A program made the position numbers and the translations under genes. DNA of 64,000 nt from Adlercreutzia sp. ZJ176 (GTDB lineage: Bacteria > Actinomycetota > Coriobacteriia > Coriobacteriales > Eggerthellaceae). Of this stretch, positions 16,690 through 31,439 are shown piece after piece. Every line of letters begins with the position of its first letter. The stretch's first letter is position 1. The stretch is from positions 1 to 64,000 of the forward strand of contig NZ_JAAKEC010000004.1 in assembly GCF_011038975.1 (NCBI RefSeq), read 5' to 3'. The notes beneath the pieces are model-generated. The model saw nothing but the letters and a program-made list of their open reading frames with translations, made no database searches and had not been told where the DNA came from.

Positions 16690-17448
16690 CTACAACGCGG
16701 AATTCTCCCGATCGTTCGCACTGTCCCCGGGCGACCCTAATGCCCTGCGTTCGTTTGCCTCTATCGTCCGGCGCACCTGATCCTCCAGCTGCTCCTCGTC
16801 GGGCAGATCCAAGAACTCCAGCACATAGGGGTTGCGGACGGCGTCCTTGGGCTCCTGGTAGACCACGCCCTTGTTGGCGAGCGCCAGGATGTCGCCGCGC
16901 CGCGCGTCGTCGCGTGCGTTGAGCGTCCGCTCGAACAGCATGCTGTTCATCTGGCGACGAAGCTCCCGCACGCTCCATCCGGAGTTTGCCGCCTCGCGCT
17001 CGTAGAAGGAGCGCTTGATGTCGTCGTCCAGATCCAATAGCTCGCAGTAATGCGACCATGTCAATTTAACAGACAGCGTCTGTTGTTTCTGATGAGTGAG
17101 ATAGAAGCGACGCATGTACTGGAGGTTCGTCACCGAAAAGCCCTTACCAAGTCGATCGGCGAGCAGCTTGGAGAGCCGTCGAAGCGTGCCTTCTCCGTAC
17201 TCCGCCCTGTCACGCCCTCCCTGCTCGTAGACGACAATCATCCTGCCATTGTTCCAGTACGAAAGCAGCTGGTCTACGTTGACGTGGCGCGCCGCCGCAT
17301 TGCGAGCGCTGTCGATGGATCGTTCGATCGCGTCCGCGAGCTCCTCAAACGATGGGTGCTCTCCGATGTTGCCGGCATCCTCCTGGATATTCCAGACGCT
17401 GTCTGGAATATCCACCATCAGCTCGTTGTTCTTGCTGGTATGCGACAT
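16690..17448 (-). CDS. DUF1016 (YhcG-like) N-terminal domain protein, lacking the nuclease domain
   Basis: 252 residues from ATG 17448 (GGAGGG four bases upstream). The segments LLSYWNNGRMIVVYEQGG, LADRLGKGFSVTNLQYMRRF and LTWSHYCELLDLDD are typical of DUF1016_N. In full-length YhcG-type proteins this is followed by a PDDEXK nuclease domain after VLEFLDL. Here the frame ends about 35 residues after that point, so the nuclease part is absent. It may be a truncated gene or a stand-alone specificity or antitoxin-like unit. Confidence 0.8.
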   Translation of the reverse strand: MSHTSKNNELMVDIPDSVWNIQEDAGNIGEHPSFEELADAIERSIDSARNAAARHVNVDQLLSYWNNGRMIVVYEQGGRDRAEYGEGTLRRLSKLLADRLGKGFSVTNLQYMRRFYLTHQKQQTLSVKLTWSHYCELLDLDDDIKRSFYEREAANSGWSVRELRRQMNSMLFERTLNARDDARRGDILALANKGVVYQEPKDAVRNPYVLEFLDLPDEEQLEDQVRRTIEANERRALGSPGDSANDRENSAL

Positions 17449-17564
17449 TCGCCCTCCGACTTTCAGATTCACGTTAAACGCCAGCACCCCAGCTTGTCAA
17501 ATCGTATCGACGCTGGGCCCTGACGAAGCCCTGTGTCTCGCGCGGACGCAGGCGCACTGTCCCG

Positions 17565-18845
17565 CTATATCCTCGAGAGCACCTCCAAACGGGGATAGAC
17601 CTCCTCTTGAAGGTCATCCGCTATATGGGGCGCCGCCGCAAACCCTTGCTCCCCCAGGACATCGCCTTCGGTGCCGAGAGCGGCTGTGGCGCGCTCCTGA
17701 AAGTCTTTCACCACAGTTCGCATCAGACGAACGTTGACGCCCATCTGCTCAGCCAGGAGGCGGAAGTCGGCGGTTTCCACCTCGGTTATCTCCATATGGC
17801 TTCCTATGGCCATGCCCATGGTCGAGGAGAACCGAGCGAAGTAGGTGGTGCTCACCAAATCATAGGCAGGCGCCAGCTGGAACGACTGCCAGTTGGGCGC
17901 ATAGAGGATCGAGATGTTCTTCAGATGGTTATCGCAGTTGCCGATAAGGTAGTTGAACAGCACGAGGCGCACGAGATTCGCGATGTCTTGGGCCGGCCCG
18001 GCCGAGTTCTGTCGGAGGAAGGCGGCAAGGGCAGCGGCGGTGCTCGGCTCGAGCTGGCGGTACTTCGCGGCGGGCACGATGGCGAACGCCTGGGCGATGT
18101 CCTCCTGGTGACGCCGCAAGGGGACACCCATGCCGTCAACGGTCTCGTCGGTGCTGAGCAGCCGATCATAGCGCTCCACGCAGATAATGGGCTGCGGAGG
18201 GTTGATGAGCGAGGTTTTAGCCGCCGGCACGCCGCATGCCCGGGCACAGGCTGAAGACAGGTGCTCGACCGTCATCAGGTCACGCACGTCCTCTCGAGCG
18301 AACTTGACGATGTAGTTCGAAGGGGCGCCGCCCAAAGGCTGATACCAACCTTCGTCAAGCGGAGCGGTAGAATCATGGAAGAGCCCGCACTTGCTCTGGG
18401 TGCCAGCCAGCGAAAGGCGTGCCAACTCAACAGAGGCGTCGATCTTTCCCGGCTTTCCCGCCATAGACGTGACGTCTTGCAGAGTGAGAGCCTCGTAGGC
18501 GCGCTTGCGCTGGTAGGCATCTGGGTTGATGACGATGTCACCCAAGCAGTCCAATCCGCAGCTTCCCAGCATGGTGAAGTAGTCGGTGGTGAGCATTCCC
18601 ATAGCACGACAGAGGTTCTCGAGCGCCTCGCCTTCGGGCAGGAGGCCCTTGAAGTAGGGCAGCAGCTCCTCTTCCGTGAAAGGTTCGGGGCGAAGGGGGA
18701 GCGACAGTGACACAGCGGCGGCATCGCTGCGGCTCAGGTAATTCACGTCGTAGAGAAAGCTCGTGACGCCGTTTTCACGCACAAGCCTCCCCAAGGGCAC
18801 AGGGCCTTCGGGACAGTCGCGGTAGACGATGAGCTCCAAGTTCAC
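17565..18845 (-). CDS. hipA: HipA family kinase toxin
   Basis: 426 residues, normal for HipA. NYIVKFARED holds the ATP-binding Lys, NYLIGNCDNHLKNIS the catalytic Asp/Asn loop, and LAPAYDLVST the metal-binding Asp. HipA proteins phosphorylate glutamyl-tRNA synthetase or other targets and cause growth arrest. ATG 18845 overlaps the hipB stop by four bases. It is in the accessory cluster next to the truncated DUF1016 gene. Confidence 0.93.
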   Translation of the reverse strand: MNLELIVYRDCPEGPVPLGRLVRENGVTSFLYDVNYLSRSDAAAVSLSLPLRPEPFTEEELLPYFKGLLPEGEALENLCRAMGMLTTDYFTMLGSCGLDCLGDIVINPDAYQRKRAYEALTLQDVTSMAGKPGKIDASVELARLSLAGTQSKCGLFHDSTAPLDEGWYQPLGGAPSNYIVKFAREDVRDLMTVEHLSSACARACGVPAAKTSLINPPQPIICVERYDRLLSTDETVDGMGVPLRRHQEDIAQAFAIVPAAKYRQLEPSTAAALAAFLRQNSAGPAQDIANLVRLVLFNYLIGNCDNHLKNISILYAPNWQSFQLAPAYDLVSTTYFARFSSTMGMAIGSHMEITEVETADFRLLAEQMGVNVRLMRTVVKDFQERATAALGTEGDVLGEQGFAAAPHIADDLQEEVYPRLEVLSRI

Positions 18846-23011: not shown

Positions 23012-23672
23012 CTACCCCACCTTAAGCGGTTTCAGGTACGACAAGTACTGGGTGCCCACACGCTTGCTGAGCCCCACTTTGTACTTATCGAGTAAGCCCG
23101 TCGCGCAACACCCTTCGCCCGACTTCACTTCAACAGGGCAGATGCGCAGACGTATGACAGCGTTCTCGTACGCACCACCAACAAAGAGGCTGATCTCCAT
23201 GTGCTCTATTCCACTCCCATTCCGCCAGAAGAAGAGCATCTGGTATCTTAAGACGCAAAACTGCTGAATCACAACGCCCTCCGCAAGCCTCCCCTCGTTG
23301 ACCTCGAACCTCCCGAATAAAATGCCCTCGTACGCCTCGCTCGGCGTAGTCGCCCCGTCGGCGAACACATGGGAACAAGTAGGTCCGTATCCGCTATGTG
23401 GCATTTCAGGGACAAACTCTCCTGGCTCATGACGAGCCCAATGGACGGGTCGGTGGAGTCGAGACGCAAGTTTGCAGTGCGCGCCCGCAAGACAGAAGAA
23501 AGCCCCCGTACGTCCGACTACGCGCGTTCTTGTCGAGCGCAACCAAGGTGAGCCTCTTCTCATGCTTGGCAAGCCACTCGGTTATCGCGTCGAAGGCTGT
23601 CGGGGGCGCTCCTCTCCCCTCGACAAATTTGACCATATCGTCGCGGCAGAACCGCAGGGCGCGACGCTTCAC
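23012..23672 (-). pseudogene. Decayed DUF4143-type AAA ATPase
   Basis: Three minus-strand frames each carry part of one protein in the correct order: FDAITEWLAKHEKRLTLVAL and LDKNARSRTYGGF, then TDPSIGLVMSQESLSLKC, then FEVNEGRLAEGVVIQQ and LRICPVEVKSG with KRVGTQYLSYLKPLKV. These match the middle and C-terminal parts of ATPases with a DUF4143 domain, as I know that family. At least two frameshifts are needed to join them. The N-terminal ATPase part is missing or unrecognisable, although sequence up to about 23845 may belong to it. It forms the left flank of the AT-rich island. Confidence 0.75.
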
Positions 23673-23825
23673 GCGGTCGACGTGCCCCTACCAGCAGACG
23701 TTTGCGCCAAAGTGCCAAGCACCTATGGTGCAGCGCGTCGGGAATCACCTCGCCCTCATGGAGCATGAGAAGCATCCGGACGAGGGAGCGCTCTCTCGGG
23801 GTCAGAACACTTTTCTTCGTTGCGA

Positions 23826-23831: not shown

Positions 23832-23876
23832 CGAAGCACGTCATTGAGCGTATCGAGGTTTAAATTAGGAGCTGCC

Positions 23877-26795
23877 ATGTTTGAAAATGGCGTTGTGGTT
23901 AGATACGGAGTTGCAGACCGGGCTCATGAGAATGAATTCTTCCGCTATTTCGCACGTTCCGTAAAGGCATATTTCGATAAAAAGAGCATTCCTGCGCTGT
24001 TGATTGGGATGCCGGAATGCAGAGTCGACAGCAGGCTTCAAATTGACGCTCTTTTGATTACAGCGAAGACTTTAACTATCATTGATTTCAAGGACTACGG
24101 CGGAACGCTAGTGCTTCCAGACGAGCCTTCTTTCAAGAAGGGGCAATGGAAGACCGTCGAAGGATTAATCGTAAAGGGAGGATGCAGCCCAAATCCTTTC
24201 TACCAAACCGGCCTTCAGCGCGAACGCCTAATAAAGATCCTCGAAACGTTTTGCAGAAATCTCACATCGTTCAACGCACGGCATATCTCGACCATGATCT
24301 GCTTCTCTAAAAAAATGCAGATCAGGGGACACATACCTGGAAGTTACAGAAGTTATTTCCATATTGCAGATGAAGAATCGTTTTTGGAGAAGCTCTTCGA
24401 TACCGTATGCGCTGGTCGCGAGAACAACGACCTGCTGAGTAAATTGTTCCTCGATTGTTTCAATAAAAAGATATTCAGTTCCACGGAATATGATCTTGTA
24501 GTTAATCCCAAATCGTTGGGTATCGAATGTGCCCAAATTCCTCCTGCGCAATTTGCCAAGCACCAACAGCAGCATAAAAGACCCGCAACGTTCATTGATA
24601 AAATCAGATCATTTTTAAAAGGTAATTCTCCGGTCCTTATCGTCACAGGAACTGTTGGATCTGACAAAGCCCAGCTGGCACCAATCATTCGAGAGGAAGC
24701 TTTCCGAGTTGGGTTCTCCTCAGCTCGAGTCTTCGCTTTGTCTAACAGAGTCAAACGAAACCTTACGAGTGCCATCGACGAGGTAGAGAGCCTATATTCA
24801 ACGCTTTTCGATTTTTCTGCTGCAAAGATCGATGAAAACGGTAAGCGGTTCATCCCAAGAGCATCCTTGGAGGAATGCAGCCCGTTTAGTGATTGCATGA
24901 GTTCCGACGAAGAGAATCACCGTCATGTTTTCGTCGTGTATGAAAGCCAGTTGATTACCAATTCTGATCGCACCGAAGAAATGGTTCAATTCGGCACGGG
25001 ACATCTTCTTTCTGATCTGCTGAGCCATCTTGGCATCGGCAACGAAAAGTGCGTAAACAAGATTGTCTTCGTTGGCGACAGATTCCAGCTTGGGTTTGGC
25101 TCTTGGAGCGAATCCTGCCTCAATGAGAATTGGTACAAAGATAGTATTTCGGTTGAAACAATCGAGCTTCCTGATGTGCAGAACCCGACGGGAATCCAGG
25201 AAACATGCCTTCAGATCGCGAATGCAATCCGTCAGGGTAGAACCACAAATCTTGTGCTCGAGGAGAATGATCAAGTAAAGATCTGCGATGGGAGACTCGA
25301 GCGAGAGCTACTTGAGAATGCAGGTGAAAACAGCTTTCATCACAAAGTGCTTGCCTATACCAATAAGCAAGCAAGCGATCTCAACAACTACACGAAAACA
25401 AGTATCATCGGTAATGGCAAGCAACCCACAACCGGGGATGTCGTGGTTTTCGAAAACCAAGCTTTTGCATACCCTTCTGCTCATCACAACCAGCCTCTTG
25501 GTTCAGTTCCGCAGTTCGACGACACGGAACCAAAACGAGTCGAGAACGGAAAGACTGGCACCATCGTCAATGTGGATAAGAACGAAGAAAACTGGCTTGT
25601 ATTGGAGGAGCAGGTTGCAAAAGACGAAGCACCTGTTCGTCTGACACTCGTTAATGCCGACATTCGTCTAGACTCATCAAGGGCATCGGAAACATATCGG
25701 ATTCCATTTATCCTCGAGCTCCTTCAGTCTGATAGTGCAAAACTCAGCCCGATGCAGGAAATGGCTCTCAAGATCCATCTCTCGAGACTTTTAGAAAGCC
25801 ACATGAAGACTCGTCCTTTTGAGAAAAGCCATTATTTTAACGAAATGATGATTTCAGGAGATTATTTTATTAATGAAGCCGGCCAGTATAGGGATAAAAA
25901 AGACCACCGATTCTTGACCGTTTACGAAAGACGCTATCGCAATGAGATGCAGCGGGAAATCCTAGAGGGAAACAGCGAATATTCAAGGTGGCTTAACGCC
26001 GCACAGATCAAATACGGCTGGTGCATGACCGTCCACAAAGCCATGTCAAATGAGTACGACGAGATCACTTTCTCGACAAATTACGAGGGGGGCAGACGTA
26101 ATGAGATGTATTTCAAGTTCTTGTACACCGGAATCAGCAGGGCTCGCAACCGCGTTAACCTAGTCCGATGGAAACCCGTCTCTCCATTTGAGAAAACCGA
26201 ATTCGGCTTTCTCGATCAGCCTACTAAAAACTCCTCAAGAAAGCTGACTATCCTCGTATCAACAATGGATGCAGTGACTTCCGATATTAGAAGTCTAGTC
26301 GAAAGATCGCTTGCCGATGGCATGACGATAACGACAGCAAAGTCAGTTCGCTATCAGGAAATCTACGAAATCGCTCAAGGCGATAAAAGCTTCAAGATGA
26401 TCTTTGACTATGACAGCAACGGAAAGGTTAGATCTCCTCGTTACGCAAAGGGAGACAAAGGGCTATTCAACGCCTTCAGAGAAGGTGTCTCGGGCTCACC
26501 TTTATCTTCAGGTGCCGCAGAGAAGGGGCAGATGACCTGGCTTTACGATATTGTCTCCATGGATATTCTTAAGGATTGCGAGGTGTCTGTCGAATCGTCT
26601 TCAAACTATAGAGACATTCTGGCAATAAAGAAAAACGCGTCCACGGTAAACGTGTGTGTTGACTACAAAAAGGACAACTCAGTAAGCAGGTTCAGAGCTC
26701 AATCGGGAGATAAGGGGTTGTTCTCCTGCATAGTGCAAGCAATCTGCTCCTATTATGCGATTCCATATCCCGAAACAGCCTTGTGGAGGGAATAG
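23877..26795 (+). CDS. NERD nuclease-like domain fused to SF1 helicase, altered ATPase motifs
   Basis: 972 residues from ATG 23877 (TTAGGAG five bases upstream). Residues about 15-110 resemble a NERD (PDDEXK-type) nuclease: ENEFF, then LQIDALLIT and IDFKDYGG (Asp57, Asp70, Lys72). Residues about 250-765 follow the SF1/RecD-UvrD order. Walker A-like GTVGSDKA is near 258, Walker B-like VFVVYES near 351, motif III FVGDRFQL near 398, motif V MTVHKAMSNEYDE near 717, and motif VI YTGISRARNRV near 750. Walker A lacks the usual GK(S/T) and Walker B has Tyr-Glu for Asp-Glu. The C-terminus holds two copies of a domain ending in GDKGLF (about 817-871 and 901-956). Codon use is AT-rich and unlike the neighbours. 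It lies three bases before the partner gene. A role in defence against foreign DNA is an inference. Confidence 0.8.
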   Translation: MFENGVVVRYGVADRAHENEFFRYFARSVKAYFDKKSIPALLIGMPECRVDSRLQIDALLITAKTLTIIDFKDYGGTLVLPDEPSFKKGQWKTVEGLIVKGGCSPNPFYQTGLQRERLIKILETFCRNLTSFNARHISTMICFSKKMQIRGHIPGSYRSYFHIADEESFLEKLFDTVCAGRENNDLLSKLFLDCFNKKIFSSTEYDLVVNPKSLGIECAQIPPAQFAKHQQQHKRPATFIDKIRSFLKGNSPVLIVTGTVGSDKAQLAPIIREEAFRVGFSSARVFALSNRVKRNLTSAIDEVESLYSTLFDFSAAKIDENGKRFIPRASLEECSPFSDCMSSDEENHRHVFVVYESQLITNSDRTEEMVQFGTGHLLSDLLSHLGIGNEKCVNKIVFVGDRFQLGFGSWSESCLNENWYKDSISVETIELPDVQNPTGIQETCLQIANAIRQGRTTNLVLEENDQVKICDGRLERELLENAGENSFHHKVLAYTNKQASDLNNYTKTSIIGNGKQPTTGDVVVFENQAFAYPSAHHNQPLGSVPQFDDTEPKRVENGKTGTIVNVDKNEENWLVLEEQVAKDEAPVRLTLVNADIRLDSSRASETYRIPFILELLQSDSAKLSPMQEMALKIHLSRLLESHMKTRPFEKSHYFNEMMISGDYFINEAGQYRDKKDHRFLTVYERRYRNEMQREILEGNSEYSRWLNAAQIKYGWCMTVHKAMSNEYDEITFSTNYEGGRRNEMYFKFLYTGISRARNRVNLVRWKPVSPFEKTEFGFLDQPTKNSSRKLTILVSTMDAVTSDIRSLVERSLADGMTITTAKSVRYQEIYEIAQGDKSFKMIFDYDSNGKVRSPRYAKGDKGLFNAFREGVSGSPLSSGAAEKGQMTWLYDIVSMDILKDCEVSVESSSNYRDILAIKKNASTVNVCVDYKKDNSVSRFRAQSGDKGLFSCIVQAICSYYAIPYPETALWRE

Positions 26796-26798
26796 GGA

Positions 26799-29081
26799 AT
26801 GGCATACCAACCTAGCGCTGAAGCAGCCCATGTTACGGAACTAAGGAAGTCAGGAAAGCTAAAGGAGTCATACGACTACGCGAAAGCGGAATTCATAGCT
26901 GGCAATCGTGAGGATACGTTCATGAGCGCCTATACATGGGTACTTCACGATTGCCTAAAGAGGTACTTTGACAGCAGCTCGAGATTCTATCAAGACACAA
27001 CCGCCTTTGTTCGCACCTTGGCCCAAATTCGCTCCTTCCCAATTGACGAAGCTAGAGACGGTCTTTTCATCGACAATCTTACCAACAAGGTTCGCACCGT
27101 AATCTGGGAGCAGGTTAAGCAAAACAATATCGAGAATACTCAACGGCTAGCATTCGAGGTGTGTCAATGGAGACGCGGCGAGGCTCTGTATTCGACCGAT
27201 ATCGCCAGGCCCTTGCTCGTCGGCCTAAAAGCCGATTGTGAGAGAAGCGGCCTTGTTCTCAACTGGCTGGGCATCCAGGCAAGATCCTGGGCGGATTTTC
27301 TTACATTGCCTCCAGAAGCAATCAAATCCCAGGTCAGTCAAGACAAAGTGGCAAGCGTCGCAGCTCTATGGGCGCTTTACGATGATCTGAAACGCTACTC
27401 GGGAGACGATCAAGGACGTGGCGTCTCGATGGATCGTTTCGTGAATACGTTGGCGCTGTTTCGTTGCTTCGACAGCAATGCACACGAAATACGTGAGGTG
27501 CTTGCACACGCCGTGAACAAGCTTGTTCACGTTGGCTGGAATTGCAGAAAGGCTAAGAATCAACAATGTTTATCCATTTTGCTTCAAGAGGCAACCCAAT
27601 GGCATCATAACTCTCCTATGCACGATTCGAATGTGCTGCTGATGTTCTCAAAGGGTCTCCAAGGCAACGGTTTGGATTTGATTAAGCTGGTCGAGTGGTA
27701 TGGGATCGATAGTCTCAGTAGCCAGGATTTCTCAGAAAGAAGAGACGGAGATAAGGTCTACCCCTCACTCGCCCAATCACTCATATCGCAATACATGGAG
27801 TCACTCATGTCGTACGACAGAGACGGACGGGCATTCACGACTGACGAGCAAAAGAAAACCGCCGCGAGTGATCTGGAGAAACTCCTTGGTTCTGATCTCT
27901 GCAAGACGTGGAAATGGGAATCTTATAAACTTGGTCTCCTGCTGATCGATGTCGGTCGCTATAAATCAGCAAGAGCTCGTCTTGCAAACATCGTTTCCAC
28001 CGAAGCTAGGCAAGCTTGGTCTTGGGCTGCCTATGGGCGAGCATGGAAAGATGATTCAGAAGAGAGGTACGAACAGTGTCTGTTTAAGGGCCTCTCAGTT
28101 TCAAATGACATACGAACCTCTCTCAGCGTTCATGAAGAAGCGTTGCAGATTTTTGCGAAGAAAGGTATGTTCAGCGACGCAAAAGCTGAAGCTGAACTGA
28201 TAGAAAATTTCAGGTCAGAACGCGAATGGAAGCCATCAGCTATCGTTGAGCAGGTAAAAACCCAAGATTGGTTTGAGTCAAGCGAAGCAAACAACAATTG
28301 CAGGGAAACATACGAGGCGCTCTCCCAAAATGCAGAGGACATTCTTGCCGAAGATCTTCCCTGGACCGAGTTTTATGTTGAATGGGAAAATCGCGAAAAA
28401 GGCCTTGTGGGCATCGTAATTCCTACCGGCTACAGCAGGACTAACTCATTGAACGTCAGCAGGGAAATTGCACGTGGCGCCCTCGCCGAACAACTGAAAA
28501 TCGGCTTATGCTACAGAGGGCATTGCGGTCCCGAAAAGAAGATGATTCTGGGTAAGGTAGAGGAATATCCCCAAGCTAAAATACGCAGCTACTTCTTGAA
28601 TAACTACTCTGGTTTGATCGACCTTGTGAAGGATTTTGGTTTTGTTCGAGGCAAACCAGATAGCGTATGGGTGCCCCCAGCTCTCCTTTCTGGCTTGGAC
28701 GTCAAGCAATACCAAAAAGCGTCTGGCGAATGCCGGAGCGTATTTCGGAAGGACAAGGGCTGGGTTTGGGAGGCTTCAAGCATTAACCTCGGAGAAGAAT
28801 CTCCAGCTGATTCCTTTGAAAAAGTGTTTGAAGGCTACCTTGACGTAACGAGCAGGGGCTTTGGCTTCGTTAGTGACTGCTTTGTCCCTGCGCCTTTAGT
28901 TGCGAAAGTCGGAGAATGCGGCCGCATAAAGGTTAAGGCAAAAAAGAGCTGGGATAGCAAGAAGAATCGATGGAGCTGGTCTGCATACGAGCTTTTAGGC
29001 ACCGATATGAATAACAATGGCGAATGCGATTATGCCAAATCAAATGGCAGTGTGCCCATTGCTGGTGCAGATGCGCCCTAG
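26799..29081 (+). CDS. Large helical-repeat protein with C-terminal OB-like domain, partner of the NERD-helicase
   Basis: 760 residues; GGAGGG precedes ATG 26799, and the previous stop is three bases upstream. Two similar blocks of about 125 residues (44-167 and 189-311) share the pattern W-x-L-x-D-x-LKRY, a central Trp motif, W-x-GI and a closing DF. Residues about 330-480 look like TPR-type helices. The region 520-650 may contain a first OB-like unit (GLVGIVIPTGYSR), and 685-745 a second (GFGFVSDCFVPAPLV, then KAKKSWDSKKNRWSWSAYEL). Similar TPR-plus-OB proteins are known to me from predicted conflict systems (possibly those called TOTE), but I cannot confirm the family. AT-rich like its partner. 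Confidence 0.7.
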   Translation: MAYQPSAEAAHVTELRKSGKLKESYDYAKAEFIAGNREDTFMSAYTWVLHDCLKRYFDSSSRFYQDTTAFVRTLAQIRSFPIDEARDGLFIDNLTNKVRTVIWEQVKQNNIENTQRLAFEVCQWRRGEALYSTDIARPLLVGLKADCERSGLVLNWLGIQARSWADFLTLPPEAIKSQVSQDKVASVAALWALYDDLKRYSGDDQGRGVSMDRFVNTLALFRCFDSNAHEIREVLAHAVNKLVHVGWNCRKAKNQQCLSILLQEATQWHHNSPMHDSNVLLMFSKGLQGNGLDLIKLVEWYGIDSLSSQDFSERRDGDKVYPSLAQSLISQYMESLMSYDRDGRAFTTDEQKKTAASDLEKLLGSDLCKTWKWESYKLGLLLIDVGRYKSARARLANIVSTEARQAWSWAAYGRAWKDDSEERYEQCLFKGLSVSNDIRTSLSVHEEALQIFAKKGMFSDAKAEAELIENFRSEREWKPSAIVEQVKTQDWFESSEANNNCRETYEALSQNAEDILAEDLPWTEFYVEWENREKGLVGIVIPTGYSRTNSLNVSREIARGALAEQLKIGLCYRGHCGPEKKMILGKVEEYPQAKIRSYFLNNYSGLIDLVKDFGFVRGKPDSVWVPPALLSGLDVKQYQKASGECRSVFRKDKGWVWEASSINLGEESPADSFEKVFEGYLDVTSRGFGFVSDCFVPAPLVAKVGECGRIKVKAKKSWDSKKNRWSWSAYELLGTDMNNNGECDYAKSNGSVPIAGADAP

Positions 29082-29126: not shown

Positions 29127-29547
29127 CTACAAGCAGAACGCCATGTACAGCGGGAGGAAGATGCGACTGCCCTCCACCTTCAGCTGCTTAGGGTGGAACA
29201 CGACCTCCGCGCCGACGCGCTTGTCGAATCGGGCCTTGAAGTCGTCGAGGGAGACCGTTCTGTACGCCTTGGTCGACTTGACCTCGATGGGGCATACCCG
29301 GAGCCTCCCCGCCGCATCGGAGAACCCCCTGGTCGTGAGGAAGTCGATTTCCCGAGCAAGCGGCTTGCCGCCGTCCCTCTTCGGCTCCTCGTTCCACGAG
29401 TAGTAGTAGAGCTTGCAGCCCAGCGCGACCAGCTGCTGGGCGATGGCGTTCTCGACGAACATCCCCTTGTTGATCGATGTCTTGCCGAACTGCAGGTCGC
29501 GGTAGATTATAATCCTAATGCCCTGACCTGCCAGTTGTCAGCTTTCC
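29127..29547 (-). pseudogene. C-terminal fragment of a DUF4143-type ATPase
   Basis: An open minus-strand frame reads IYRDLQFGKTSINKGMFVEN, then REIDFLTTRGF, RVCPIEVKSTKAYRTVSLDD and KRVGAEVVFHPKQLKVEG, and ends normally with LPLYMAFCL. This is the C-terminal nuclease-like part of DUF4143 ATPases. The AAA domain and the true start are absent; homology stops near 29520 and the frame meets a TGA just upstream. It flanks the AT-rich island on the right, in the same orientation as the left remnant. Confidence 0.75.
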
Positions 29548-29627
29548 GCGATATTACATAACTCCAAATCGTCAGCTTTCCACGATATTATAGCAGCTTA
29601 TATCGTCAGCTTTCTGCGATAAGGTAA
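29535..29627. repeat. Three 34-base-period direct repeats
   Basis: The core GTCAGCTTTCCGCGATATTA recurs at 29537, 29571 and 29605 (period exactly 34). The third copy has the flanks TATCG and CGATA, so a complete unit is also an interrupted inverted repeat of 21 bases. They lie immediately upstream of the ATPase fragment in its reading direction. Confidence 0.75.
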
Positions 29628-29766: not shown

Positions 29767-30099
29767 CTAACGTAAGCCGAACATGCCGCGGATGTAGCTG
29801 AGGATGGTCTTCATGGACGCGTCGTCGGCGTAGCCGATGACGCGGTAACCACGATGGGCGACGTCGATGTTGCGAAGCGCCTCCACGCAAGCCCAGCCGG
29901 CTGCGGCGTCCGTCTCGATGGGCACGTGGAGGGGGTAGTCGTGTCGCTTGGTCGTTATGGGCACGACGCTGACCAGGCTCGACCGCGCATTGAAGCCGAA
30001 CACGCTGACCACGACGGCCGGGCGCAGCTTCGCGGGCTCATGGCCGACCGAGGGGTTGAAGTCGACCTCGATGATGTCTCCCTGCTCAAGCGCGGTCAT
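29767..30099 (-). CDS. MazF/PemK family toxin
   Basis: 110 residues from ATG 30099 (GGAGG seven bases upstream). QGDIIEVDFNPSVGHEPAKL, then RPAVVVSVFGFN and LVSVVPITTK, is the MazF/PemK fold pattern including the conserved basic and Pro-Ile-Thr segment. MazF toxins are sequence-specific mRNA or tRNA endoribonucleases. The start overlaps the stop of the upstream antitoxin-like gene by four bases (ATGA), which supports a toxin-antitoxin pair. Confidence 0.9.
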   Translation of the reverse strand: MTALEQGDIIEVDFNPSVGHEPAKLRPAVVVSVFGFNARSSLVSVVPITTKRHDYPLHVPIETDAAAGWACVEALRNIDVAHRGYRVIGYADDASMKTILSYIRGMFGLR

Positions 30100-31415
30100 T
30101 CGACGACCTCCGCCCCGACGTCTCGCCCCCAATCGAATTCCGCCGGCTGGAAAGGACCTACGTGCTCGGAGAACAGCTCATCCATGGAGACGTACGGCGC
30201 GTCGCCGTAGGAGCGGTGCTCGCCTGAGGGGCGGATGACGATGAAGCCCCCCCTGCTGTCGCTGCCCGCATGCATTTCCAGGGCCGAGCCCACGCCGATG
30301 CCCACGCTCTCGCACATCCGCTTCGGGATGCGCACCGCATGGGAAGATCCCCACTTGCACAACCGCGTGCTCACCTCAAGCTCGCGAGGCTTCTCTTCCG
30401 CCAGGGGCATGACGGCCTCCCTGAGCTGCGCGACGGCGTCCGCGAGGCGGACGTCATCCTCTCCCGCGTCTTTCATCTCCGCGTACAGCCCAAGCGCGTC
30501 GAGCGTCGCGAGGCCCGTCGCGGGCACTGAGGTGTTATTGGAGCCGTCGAGTTCATAGGCCCACTCCTCCACGATGACATCAGGGGCCTCGAACCACTCC
30601 GCCTCCACCCAGTCGTCTCCAGCCTCCTCCTGCGCCCCCGTCAGGCTCTTCCGGTAGAGCGCGACCCGGACGACGCCCACATCGTGCGCCAAGTCGGAGT
30701 AGTACGGCAGCGCGCTCTCGCCGGAGAGCAGCGCACCGAAGCGCCTCAGCGCCGCGAGCGCGCCGCGTCCCTTCAGCAGCTTCCTGCCCTTCACCGGCGA
30801 TACGAGGTACGGCTCGAACGCTTCGAGCATCCCGTCCTTCGACATGCCGGGGTTCCTCAGCACGCGCCTCTTCCACTCGGTGGAGAGAGCCGACGGGAGG
30901 ATGGCCTCGATCTCGGCAAGGCAGTTCGTCACGGTCGACCTGCTCACGCTCGCAGCCTTCGCAAGCTCGCCCGCCGCCAGGCCGTTCCACCTTCCCGCTA
31001 TCAGGTTGAGGGCCATCCTCTGGGCATGGGGTGAAAGCGGACGGGCGGCCCTCCCCTCGGGCACCGGGGAGGCTGCCATCCCCAAGAAGGGCAGAAAGAC
31101 GTTGCCCTCGTCCTTGATGTAGGCGATTCCCTCGGAGGCGAGCGCCCTCATCATCCCGTGATCCAGATAAGGCGAGCAGATGGCGACGCGTCGGGGATCG
31201 GCCTTCGCAACCGCCCGCACGAGCGACTTCGAGGACAGCACCGTCGGACGGCCGACGGCGACCGCGGCCAAAAACTCCCGTCCCTCGCCCAGCTCGGCCG
31301 CCCTCAAGTTGAACTCATCGGAGTAATGCCTCGGGATTTTCGCCGACACATCGTCCAGCGCATCCGGCGAGAGCACCAGCGGCATCGAGAACAGGTACCT
31401 CGGAACGTTCTCCAT
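30096..31415 (-). CDS. AbiEi-like regulator fused to a MazE-type AbrB antitoxin domain
   Basis: 439 residues from ATG 31415 (GGAGG six bases upstream). The C-terminal 90 residues contain STRLCKWGSSHAVRIPKRM followed by a short beta-rich segment, the swapped-hairpin AbrB/MazE DNA-binding domain. The N-terminal 300 residues resemble AbiEi-type antitoxin regulators: ALASEGIAYIKDEGNVFL precedes a winged helix in GRWNGLAAGELAKAASVSRS. Partner of the MazF toxin downstream. Most MazE proteins are about 80 residues, so the large N-terminal part is unusual. Operator candidate at 31440-31474. Confidence 0.75.
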   Translation of the reverse strand: MENVPRYLFSMPLVLSPDALDDVSAKIPRHYSDEFNLRAAELGEGREFLAAVAVGRPTVLSSKSLVRAVAKADPRRVAICSPYLDHGMMRALASEGIAYIKDEGNVFLPFLGMAASPVPEGRAARPLSPHAQRMALNLIAGRWNGLAAGELAKAASVSRSTVTNCLAEIEAILPSALSTEWKRRVLRNPGMSKDGMLEAFEPYLVSPVKGRKLLKGRGALAALRRFGALLSGESALPYYSDLAHDVGVVRVALYRKSLTGAQEEAGDDWVEAEWFEAPDVIVEEWAYELDGSNNTSVPATGLATLDALGLYAEMKDAGEDDVRLADAVAQLREAVMPLAEEKPRELEVSTRLCKWGSSHAVRIPKRMCESVGIGVGSALEMHAGSDSRGGFIVIRPSGEHRSYGDAPYVSMDELFSEHVGPFQPAEFDWGRDVGAEVVE

Positions 31416-31439
31416 CTCCAACCTCCAATCATTTCGCTG

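Follow-up and report, generated by a model that had tools for sequence, protein, structure and literature searches.

A candidate anti-invader gene pair of the NERD-type TOTE kind with degraded helicase motifs in Adlercreutzia

Two adjacent genes of Adlercreutzia sp. ZJ176, here referred to as genes A and B, constitute a candidate anti-invader system whose kind has been named before as TOTE (PADLOC PDC-M16). They lie in a stretch of 64,000 nucleotides that was analysed as a whole and is called the window below. Judged from sequence and predicted structure, the pair probably represents a NERD-type TOTE module, in which sensors and a helicase fold without motor function are coupled to DNA cleavage by a NERD domain. 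Gene B, with its TPR and S1/cold-shock (CSD) OB domains, and the TBP repeats of gene A would recognize nucleic acid that is foreign or abnormal, or else an infection intermediate bound to nucleic acid. The SF1B fold, lacking an ATP-driven motor, may then hold the nucleic acid as a clamp or relay the signal as a scaffold, and the output would be DNA cleavage by the N-terminal NERD nuclease. We infer the defence role, the sensed target, the cleavage of DNA from the invader instead of the host and the lack of helicase ATPase activity. An earlier note on this DNA had likewise guessed that genes A and B constitute an anti-invader module, which appears reasonable.

Gene A (23877..26795, plus strand) encodes a protein of 972 residues consisting of a NERD domain, an SF1B-like pseudo-helicase and two TBP-like repeats (PADLOC PDC-M16A). 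Gene B (26799..29081, plus strand) encodes 760 residues that are predicted to form a TPR-like superhelix with S1/cold-shock OB domains (PADLOC PDC-M16B). Both open reading frames were recovered where two large genes had been described, and three bases separate the stop of gene A at 26795 from the start of gene B at 26799. The longest reading of gene A begins with TTG at 23820 and comprises 991 residues; the ATG at 23877 is preferred because an AGGAG motif (23867-23871) is located five bases ahead of it. A promoter scan gave a match count not above that of shuffled sequences, with no match upstream of gene A. The AT-rich codon use claimed for the pair in a GC-rich region is borne out by GC3 values of 0.51 and 0.52, compared with mostly 0.85-0.97 in neighbouring host genes, and GC content amounts to 0.45-0.50 over 24-29 kb against mostly 0.65-0.75 in the surroundings. 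The pair therefore looks foreign to the genome.

The assignment to a named family follows from several matches. PDC-M16A and PDC-M16B match the adjacent genes A and B at 2.5e-68 and 8.3e-56, respectively, covering nearly the full length of gene A and most of gene B, and some PDC-M16A models extend over the NERD part. TOTE conflict systems combine TPR, OB, TBP and Effector components (Aravind, Iyer et al. 2022, as quoted in PMC12458937). Predicted TPR, OB, TBP-like and effector enzyme components are each present in the A/B pair, and Pfam domains named after TOTE occur in both genes and in their relatives. Hence, the earlier description of the system as undescribed has to be abandoned. Among the papers that could be searched, none was found to report an assay of TOTE or PDC-M16 systems.

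The N-terminal part of gene A (residues 1-205; 23877..24491, plus strand) is a predicted PD-(D/E)XK-type nuclease domain that matches Pfam NERD at 1.1e-5, above the cut-off. NERD also matches all 20 alignment members of the gene A family. Its catalytic residues (23928..24092, plus strand) include, besides the previously proposed Asp57 (24045-24047), Asp70 (24084-24086) and Lys72 (24090-24092), also Glu18 (23928-23930). These four residues and Gln110 are invariant in 22/22 NERD-bearing proteins. With the acidic residues and a D/E-x-K motif (Asp70-x-Lys72) in place, nuclease activity can be predicted. A comparison by sequence of a NERD-part profile with solved structures returned no match, a weak search whose alignment had a mis-set fragment as its first row.

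Residues 240-775 (24594..26201, plus strand) adopt an SF1B (Dda/RecD2-like) helicase fold according to a UvrD_C_2 match (7e-7) and an AlphaFold2 model of gene A (mean pLDDT 79) that resembles T4 Dda and RecD2-type SF1B helicases, with T4 Dda (3upu, 2.3e-20) as the best Foldseek match. The fusion of a nuclease with an SF1 helicase fold put forward in the earlier note thus stands in both parts, but the note had missed that the catalytic motifs of the helicase are broken; an active motor is very improbable. At the Walker A position (24648..24671, plus strand), GTVGSDKA is found instead of the expected GxxxxGK[TS], and at the Walker B position (24939..24944, plus strand) Tyr-Glu takes the place of Asp-Glu. 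The domain list was also incomplete in that the final 180 residues, which consist of two copies of one TBP-like domain, had been overlooked. Repeat 1 (residues 796-875; 26262..26501, plus strand) is detected by hhalign and by a TBP-TOTE match of 2.5e-4, under the Pfam cut-off; the same model matches 7/20 alignment members, at best with 6.3e-13. Repeat 2 (residues 884-965; 26526..26771, plus strand) is recognized by hhalign of its profile with that of repeat 1 (probability 97.7%, E 1.9e-12) and by a helix-strands-helix pattern in the model.

For gene B, the view of a helical-repeat protein with an OB-like C-terminus is well matched by the predicted architecture. In the structural model (pLDDT 86), a long superhelix of helices leads into beta domains. 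The TPR-like repeat region (residues 7-517; 26817..28349, plus strand), which includes DUF7017 (residues 372-512; 1.1e-31), was delineated by the helices of the model and by Foldseek, whose matches are mostly TPR proteins, each with a low TM-score. TPR models match up to 8/18 members of the gene B family, and the window protein itself is matched by DUF7017 and by no TPR model. A first beta-rich domain, DUF7016 (residues 522-589; 28362..28565, plus strand; Pfam 1e-32), precedes an S1CSD-TOTE-2 OB domain (residues 675-731; 28821..28991, plus strand; Pfam 8.5e-23). DUF7016 was considered as a marker for gene B and proved too narrow, as 3/18 members match it.

The state of the helicase in the wider family was assessed by scoring four features (Walker A, Walker B Asp, motif III Gln and motif VI Arg) in 22 NERD-bearing proteins and in nine NERD-less ones, comprising a small sample of seven TOTE relatives, all from plasmids, and two outgroup RecD-like helicases. 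All four are intact in 0/22 of the former versus 9/9 of the latter. The window copy departs from an active SF1 helicase at Walker A and at the Walker B Asp and retains the Walker A Lys264, Glu356, the motif III Gln404 and the motif VI Arg755. Coriobacteriia copies have lost the Walker B Asp, with motif III Gln, motif VI Arg and Walker A Lys surviving; in Bacillota copies, Walker A (GKT) and Walker B (DE/DD) are kept, and the losses concern the Gln of motif III and the Arg of motif VI. All four features have disappeared from the Bacteroidota and Neomarinimicrobiota copies, which share a conserved Arg-Asp where the P-loop ended, and in Bacteroidota a conserved non-P-loop stretch ending in this Arg-Asp replaces the P-loop. 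These data bear on the proposal of an active helicase-nuclease, in which the SF1 part would hydrolyse ATP, translocate and feed DNA to the NERD domain in the manner of RecBCD-like enzymes or ordinary NERD-SF1 fusions. The residues surviving in Coriobacteriia and Bacillota are compatible with such a motor, and the helicase motifs are intact in a NERD-SF1 protein outside TOTE, encoded by an Ignavibacteriales MAG, so that NERD fusions can be active motors and NERD fusion alone does not dictate motor loss. Yet, with the whole motif set in none of the NERD-bearing TOTE proteins and the P-loop of Bacteroidota replaced altogether, we consider an active motor in this family quite unlikely. The gene A helicase is very probably not an active motor, bearing in mind that residue loss predicts, and does not prove, the loss of ATPase activity.

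In a tree built without the motif columns, the NERD-bearing proteins form one clade with 100/100 support. Without restrictions, a minimum of 3, 2, 3 and 2 changes is needed for Walker A, Walker B Asp, motif III Gln and motif VI Arg, respectively; assuming no regain, a count from the tree gives three or more losses of motif VI Arg and two or more of Walker B Asp. The repeated residue loss suggests that the helicase part may now serve as a sensor or scaffold for the nuclease. Alternatively, the lost motifs could reflect plain pseudogene damage in decaying remnants, given that the genes flanking the pair are remnants and motif loss is widespread. This seems scarcely credible, however: both frames are open and at full length in most genomes, the NERD residues are invariant, the motif losses are common to whole lineages, and dN/dS stays far below 1, at 0.06-0.19 for the helicase part and 0.05-0.16 for NERD in five pairs with unsaturated synonymous sites. 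The TBP repeats show higher dN/dS than either. The helicase fold is still under purifying selection.

A scan of genome contigs with the single proteins yielded no matches, and relatives were recovered by an alignment-based scan. PDLC04474 matches many ordinary helicases over the order, so only matches below 1e-30 were counted; by this measure, a strong match occurs in 6/397 genomes of the order and in neither of two same-genus genomes. Hosts of NERD-bearing pairs found in the genome scan belong to Actinomycetota, Bacillota, Bacteroidota and Neomarinimicrobiota. The nearest named relative, with 67% identity, is from Ellagibacter (Actinomycetota), which the kinship table places in the same family as the window genome (G631). 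In the genome scan, gene B directly follows gene A in all but one full-length NERD-bearing locus, the exception being a Neomarinimicrobiota MAG (L049:1968-6811) with swapped order, in which the TPR gene is ahead of the NERD gene. The co-occurrence on which the idea of a two-gene system hinges is thus widespread, with A-B adjacency kept in several phyla. Distances between A proteins and between B proteins correlate (26 pairs; Mantel r 0.85, reached in 0/5000 permutations), in agreement with co-inheritance.

NERD-less pairs with the same A-B layout are carried on plasmids of Sulfurospirillum, Acinetobacter, Klebsiella, Pseudomonas, Frigidibacter, Chryseobacterium and Rhodothermus (n=7), and close copies exist on E. 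coli plasmids. TBP-TOTE matches these plasmid relatives in two stretches (lowest E value 2.2e-44), and in their partners DUF7017 is found together with S1CSD-TOTE-1/2. Enterobacterial and Acinetobacter plasmids frequently carry such NERD-less TOTE pairs. Among 72,556 plasmids searched with NERD-bearing queries, no full-length NERD-bearing copy was found; a match on a Leptolyngbya plasmid was dismissed, being a short NERD protein whose downstream neighbour is unlike gene B. Scans of viral contigs with A and B and of phage records brought up no relatives. A phage-borne origin is accordingly not supported, though in a same-family genome (L026) the pair directly follows prophage tail genes, suggesting carriage as prophage cargo. 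At another locus (L028), it lies near an integrase.

A non-defensive explanation would be a housekeeping module or one for plasmid or prophage stability, with a role for instance in DNA repair or in the quality control of RNA, which is carried along in islands. The many plasmids with NERD-less relatives and the NERD copy beside prophage tail genes would agree with this notion. The patchy occurrence described above is unlike that of a housekeeping gene, and defence neighbours recur around the pair, which renders this explanation improbable.

These neighbours were identified in a targeted look at selected loci, without a random-gene comparison. In Flagellimonas, the pair resides inside a full BREX operon recognized by PADLOC models, brxA-brxB-brxC-pglX-[A-B]-pglZ-brxL, with one PLD-nuclease-like gene between pglX and the A/B pair. 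Haloflavibacter and a Bacteroidia MAG share this BREX order with A-B between pglX and pglZ, which amounts to three Bacteroidota genomes with BREX-embedded loci (L047, L048 and L053). In a Bacteroidales MAG, the pair adjoins BrxC, PglXI, PglZ and helicase genes, and AbiEi/AbiEii are found alongside it at two other Bacteroidales loci. A type I methyltransferase is encoded near the pair in Gillisia, and a Gabija pair is located ca. 6 kb from it in Ellagibacter. Targeted though this look was, it is difficult to account for entire BREX operons around the pair without a defence role. As a counterpoint, the island in the window is situated outside a dense defence cluster, and its neighbours are MazF-like and HipA-type toxin genes as well as ATPase remnants.

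A variant of the proposed module with another target would be abortive infection or dormancy: the OB/S1 and TBP domains would sense invader transcripts or RNA-DNA hybrids, upon which NERD would cut host DNA (or RNA) and stop the cell. OB/S1 and cold-shock domains commonly bind RNA or single-stranded DNA, in line with this variant. Moreover, NERD has been proposed as a suicidal back-up effector in BREX and Dnd systems (PMC12839542; PMC10853773), and the A/B pair might similarly provide an abortive back-up in BREX operons. The placement in BREX operons, however, fits a back-up role and does not show it, and we regard the variant as somewhat unlikely. The 2026 BREX survey (PMC12839542) discusses NERD in PglW, its main text making no reference to TPR or TBP.

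In the window, the island occupies a locus that differs between relatives. The same-genus genome G607 shares the left flank (to 22798) and the right flank (from 31547) and harbours 4.1 kb of unrelated two-component and ABC genes in between; the segment 22.8-31.5 kb thus varies within the genus. G607, with its other genes at this position, does not offer a clean empty site, and none was found. The flanking gene remnants mentioned in the earlier note derive from DUF4143-type ATPases: one C-terminal fragment lies to the left of the pair (23012-23572) and another to the right (29127-29504), both on the minus strand and 33% identical to each other. No terminal repeats were detected at the island ends and no recombinase among the neighbouring ORFs scanned. 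Of the suggested mobile module, horizontal acquisition (from GC and GC3) and a variable locus can thus be upheld, but neither an integrase nor terminal repeats or other mobility genes accompany it. The described location among toxin-antitoxin genes proved accurate, with a MazF/PemK-like toxin at 29767-30132 (minus strand) and HipA at 17565-18845 (minus strand), both from Pfam matches of neighbour ORFs.

Some further features of the surroundings deserve mention. On the minus strand of 29767-31421, the MazF/PemK-like toxin is preceded by an ORF of 441 residues, an antitoxin-like partner of unusual length with a MazE match at residues 356-400. HipA together with a DUF1016_N protein (16690-18845, minus strand) makes up a second patch of lower GC (0.58-0.61) that is probably another acquired segment. 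Beside the right-hand DUF4143 remnant, 29537-29621 contains three direct repeats GTCAGCTTTC[C/T][G/A]CGATA with a spacing of exactly 34 bases, which were not found elsewhere in the 64-kb window.

Taken together, the NERD-type TOTE module with a helicase fold that is not a motor remains our preferred reading, and the dead-motor pattern leads to a sharp prediction on the roles of weapon (NERD) and switch. The placement in BREX operons suggests a combined, two-layer defence. As a tentative extension, which we deem possible yet would not expect to hold in full, NERD TOTE may constitute a distinct immune mechanism: gain of NERD would have freed the SF1 motor from catalytic selection, at least three lineages would independently have made of it a sensor of nucleic acid, or a gate, that does not hydrolyse ATP, and in some bacteria the pair would be a built-in BREX back-up effector. 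If true, this would clearly exemplify a transition from motor to sensor, helicase catalysis having been lost repeatedly once the effector was gained while the fold was retained.

Several known systems invite comparison. With TOTE conflict systems, known here via a citing paper, the pair shares the TPR-OB partner, the TBP-like domains and an effector, which differs in being a NERD domain joined to a helicase fold without full catalytic residues. PADLOC PDC-M16 covers both genes, but is itself a candidate label without mechanism or motor status. TALON (PMC12458937) likewise brings together a NERD nuclease with TPR-CSD and TBP proteins, but it is centred on a YprA-family helicase and distributes the NERD, TPR-CSD and TBP parts over other genes; no YprA-like gene adjoins the A/B pair, whose neighbours have Pfam matches to transporters, DUF4143, PemK, MazE, HipA and DUF1016. 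T4 Dda and RecD2 SF1B helicases correspond to gene A in overall fold across residues 240-775 (3upu, 2.3e-20), whereas gene A has degraded catalytic residues and additional NERD and TBP domains. The NERD-less plasmid TOTE pairs also encode an SF1B helicase-TBP-TBP protein followed by a TPR-OB partner, but their helicase motifs are intact, and their N-terminus is DUF4145 or absent, with no NERD. Set against these systems, the repeated, NERD-linked loss of helicase catalysis and the BREX-embedded copies are new as far as checked.
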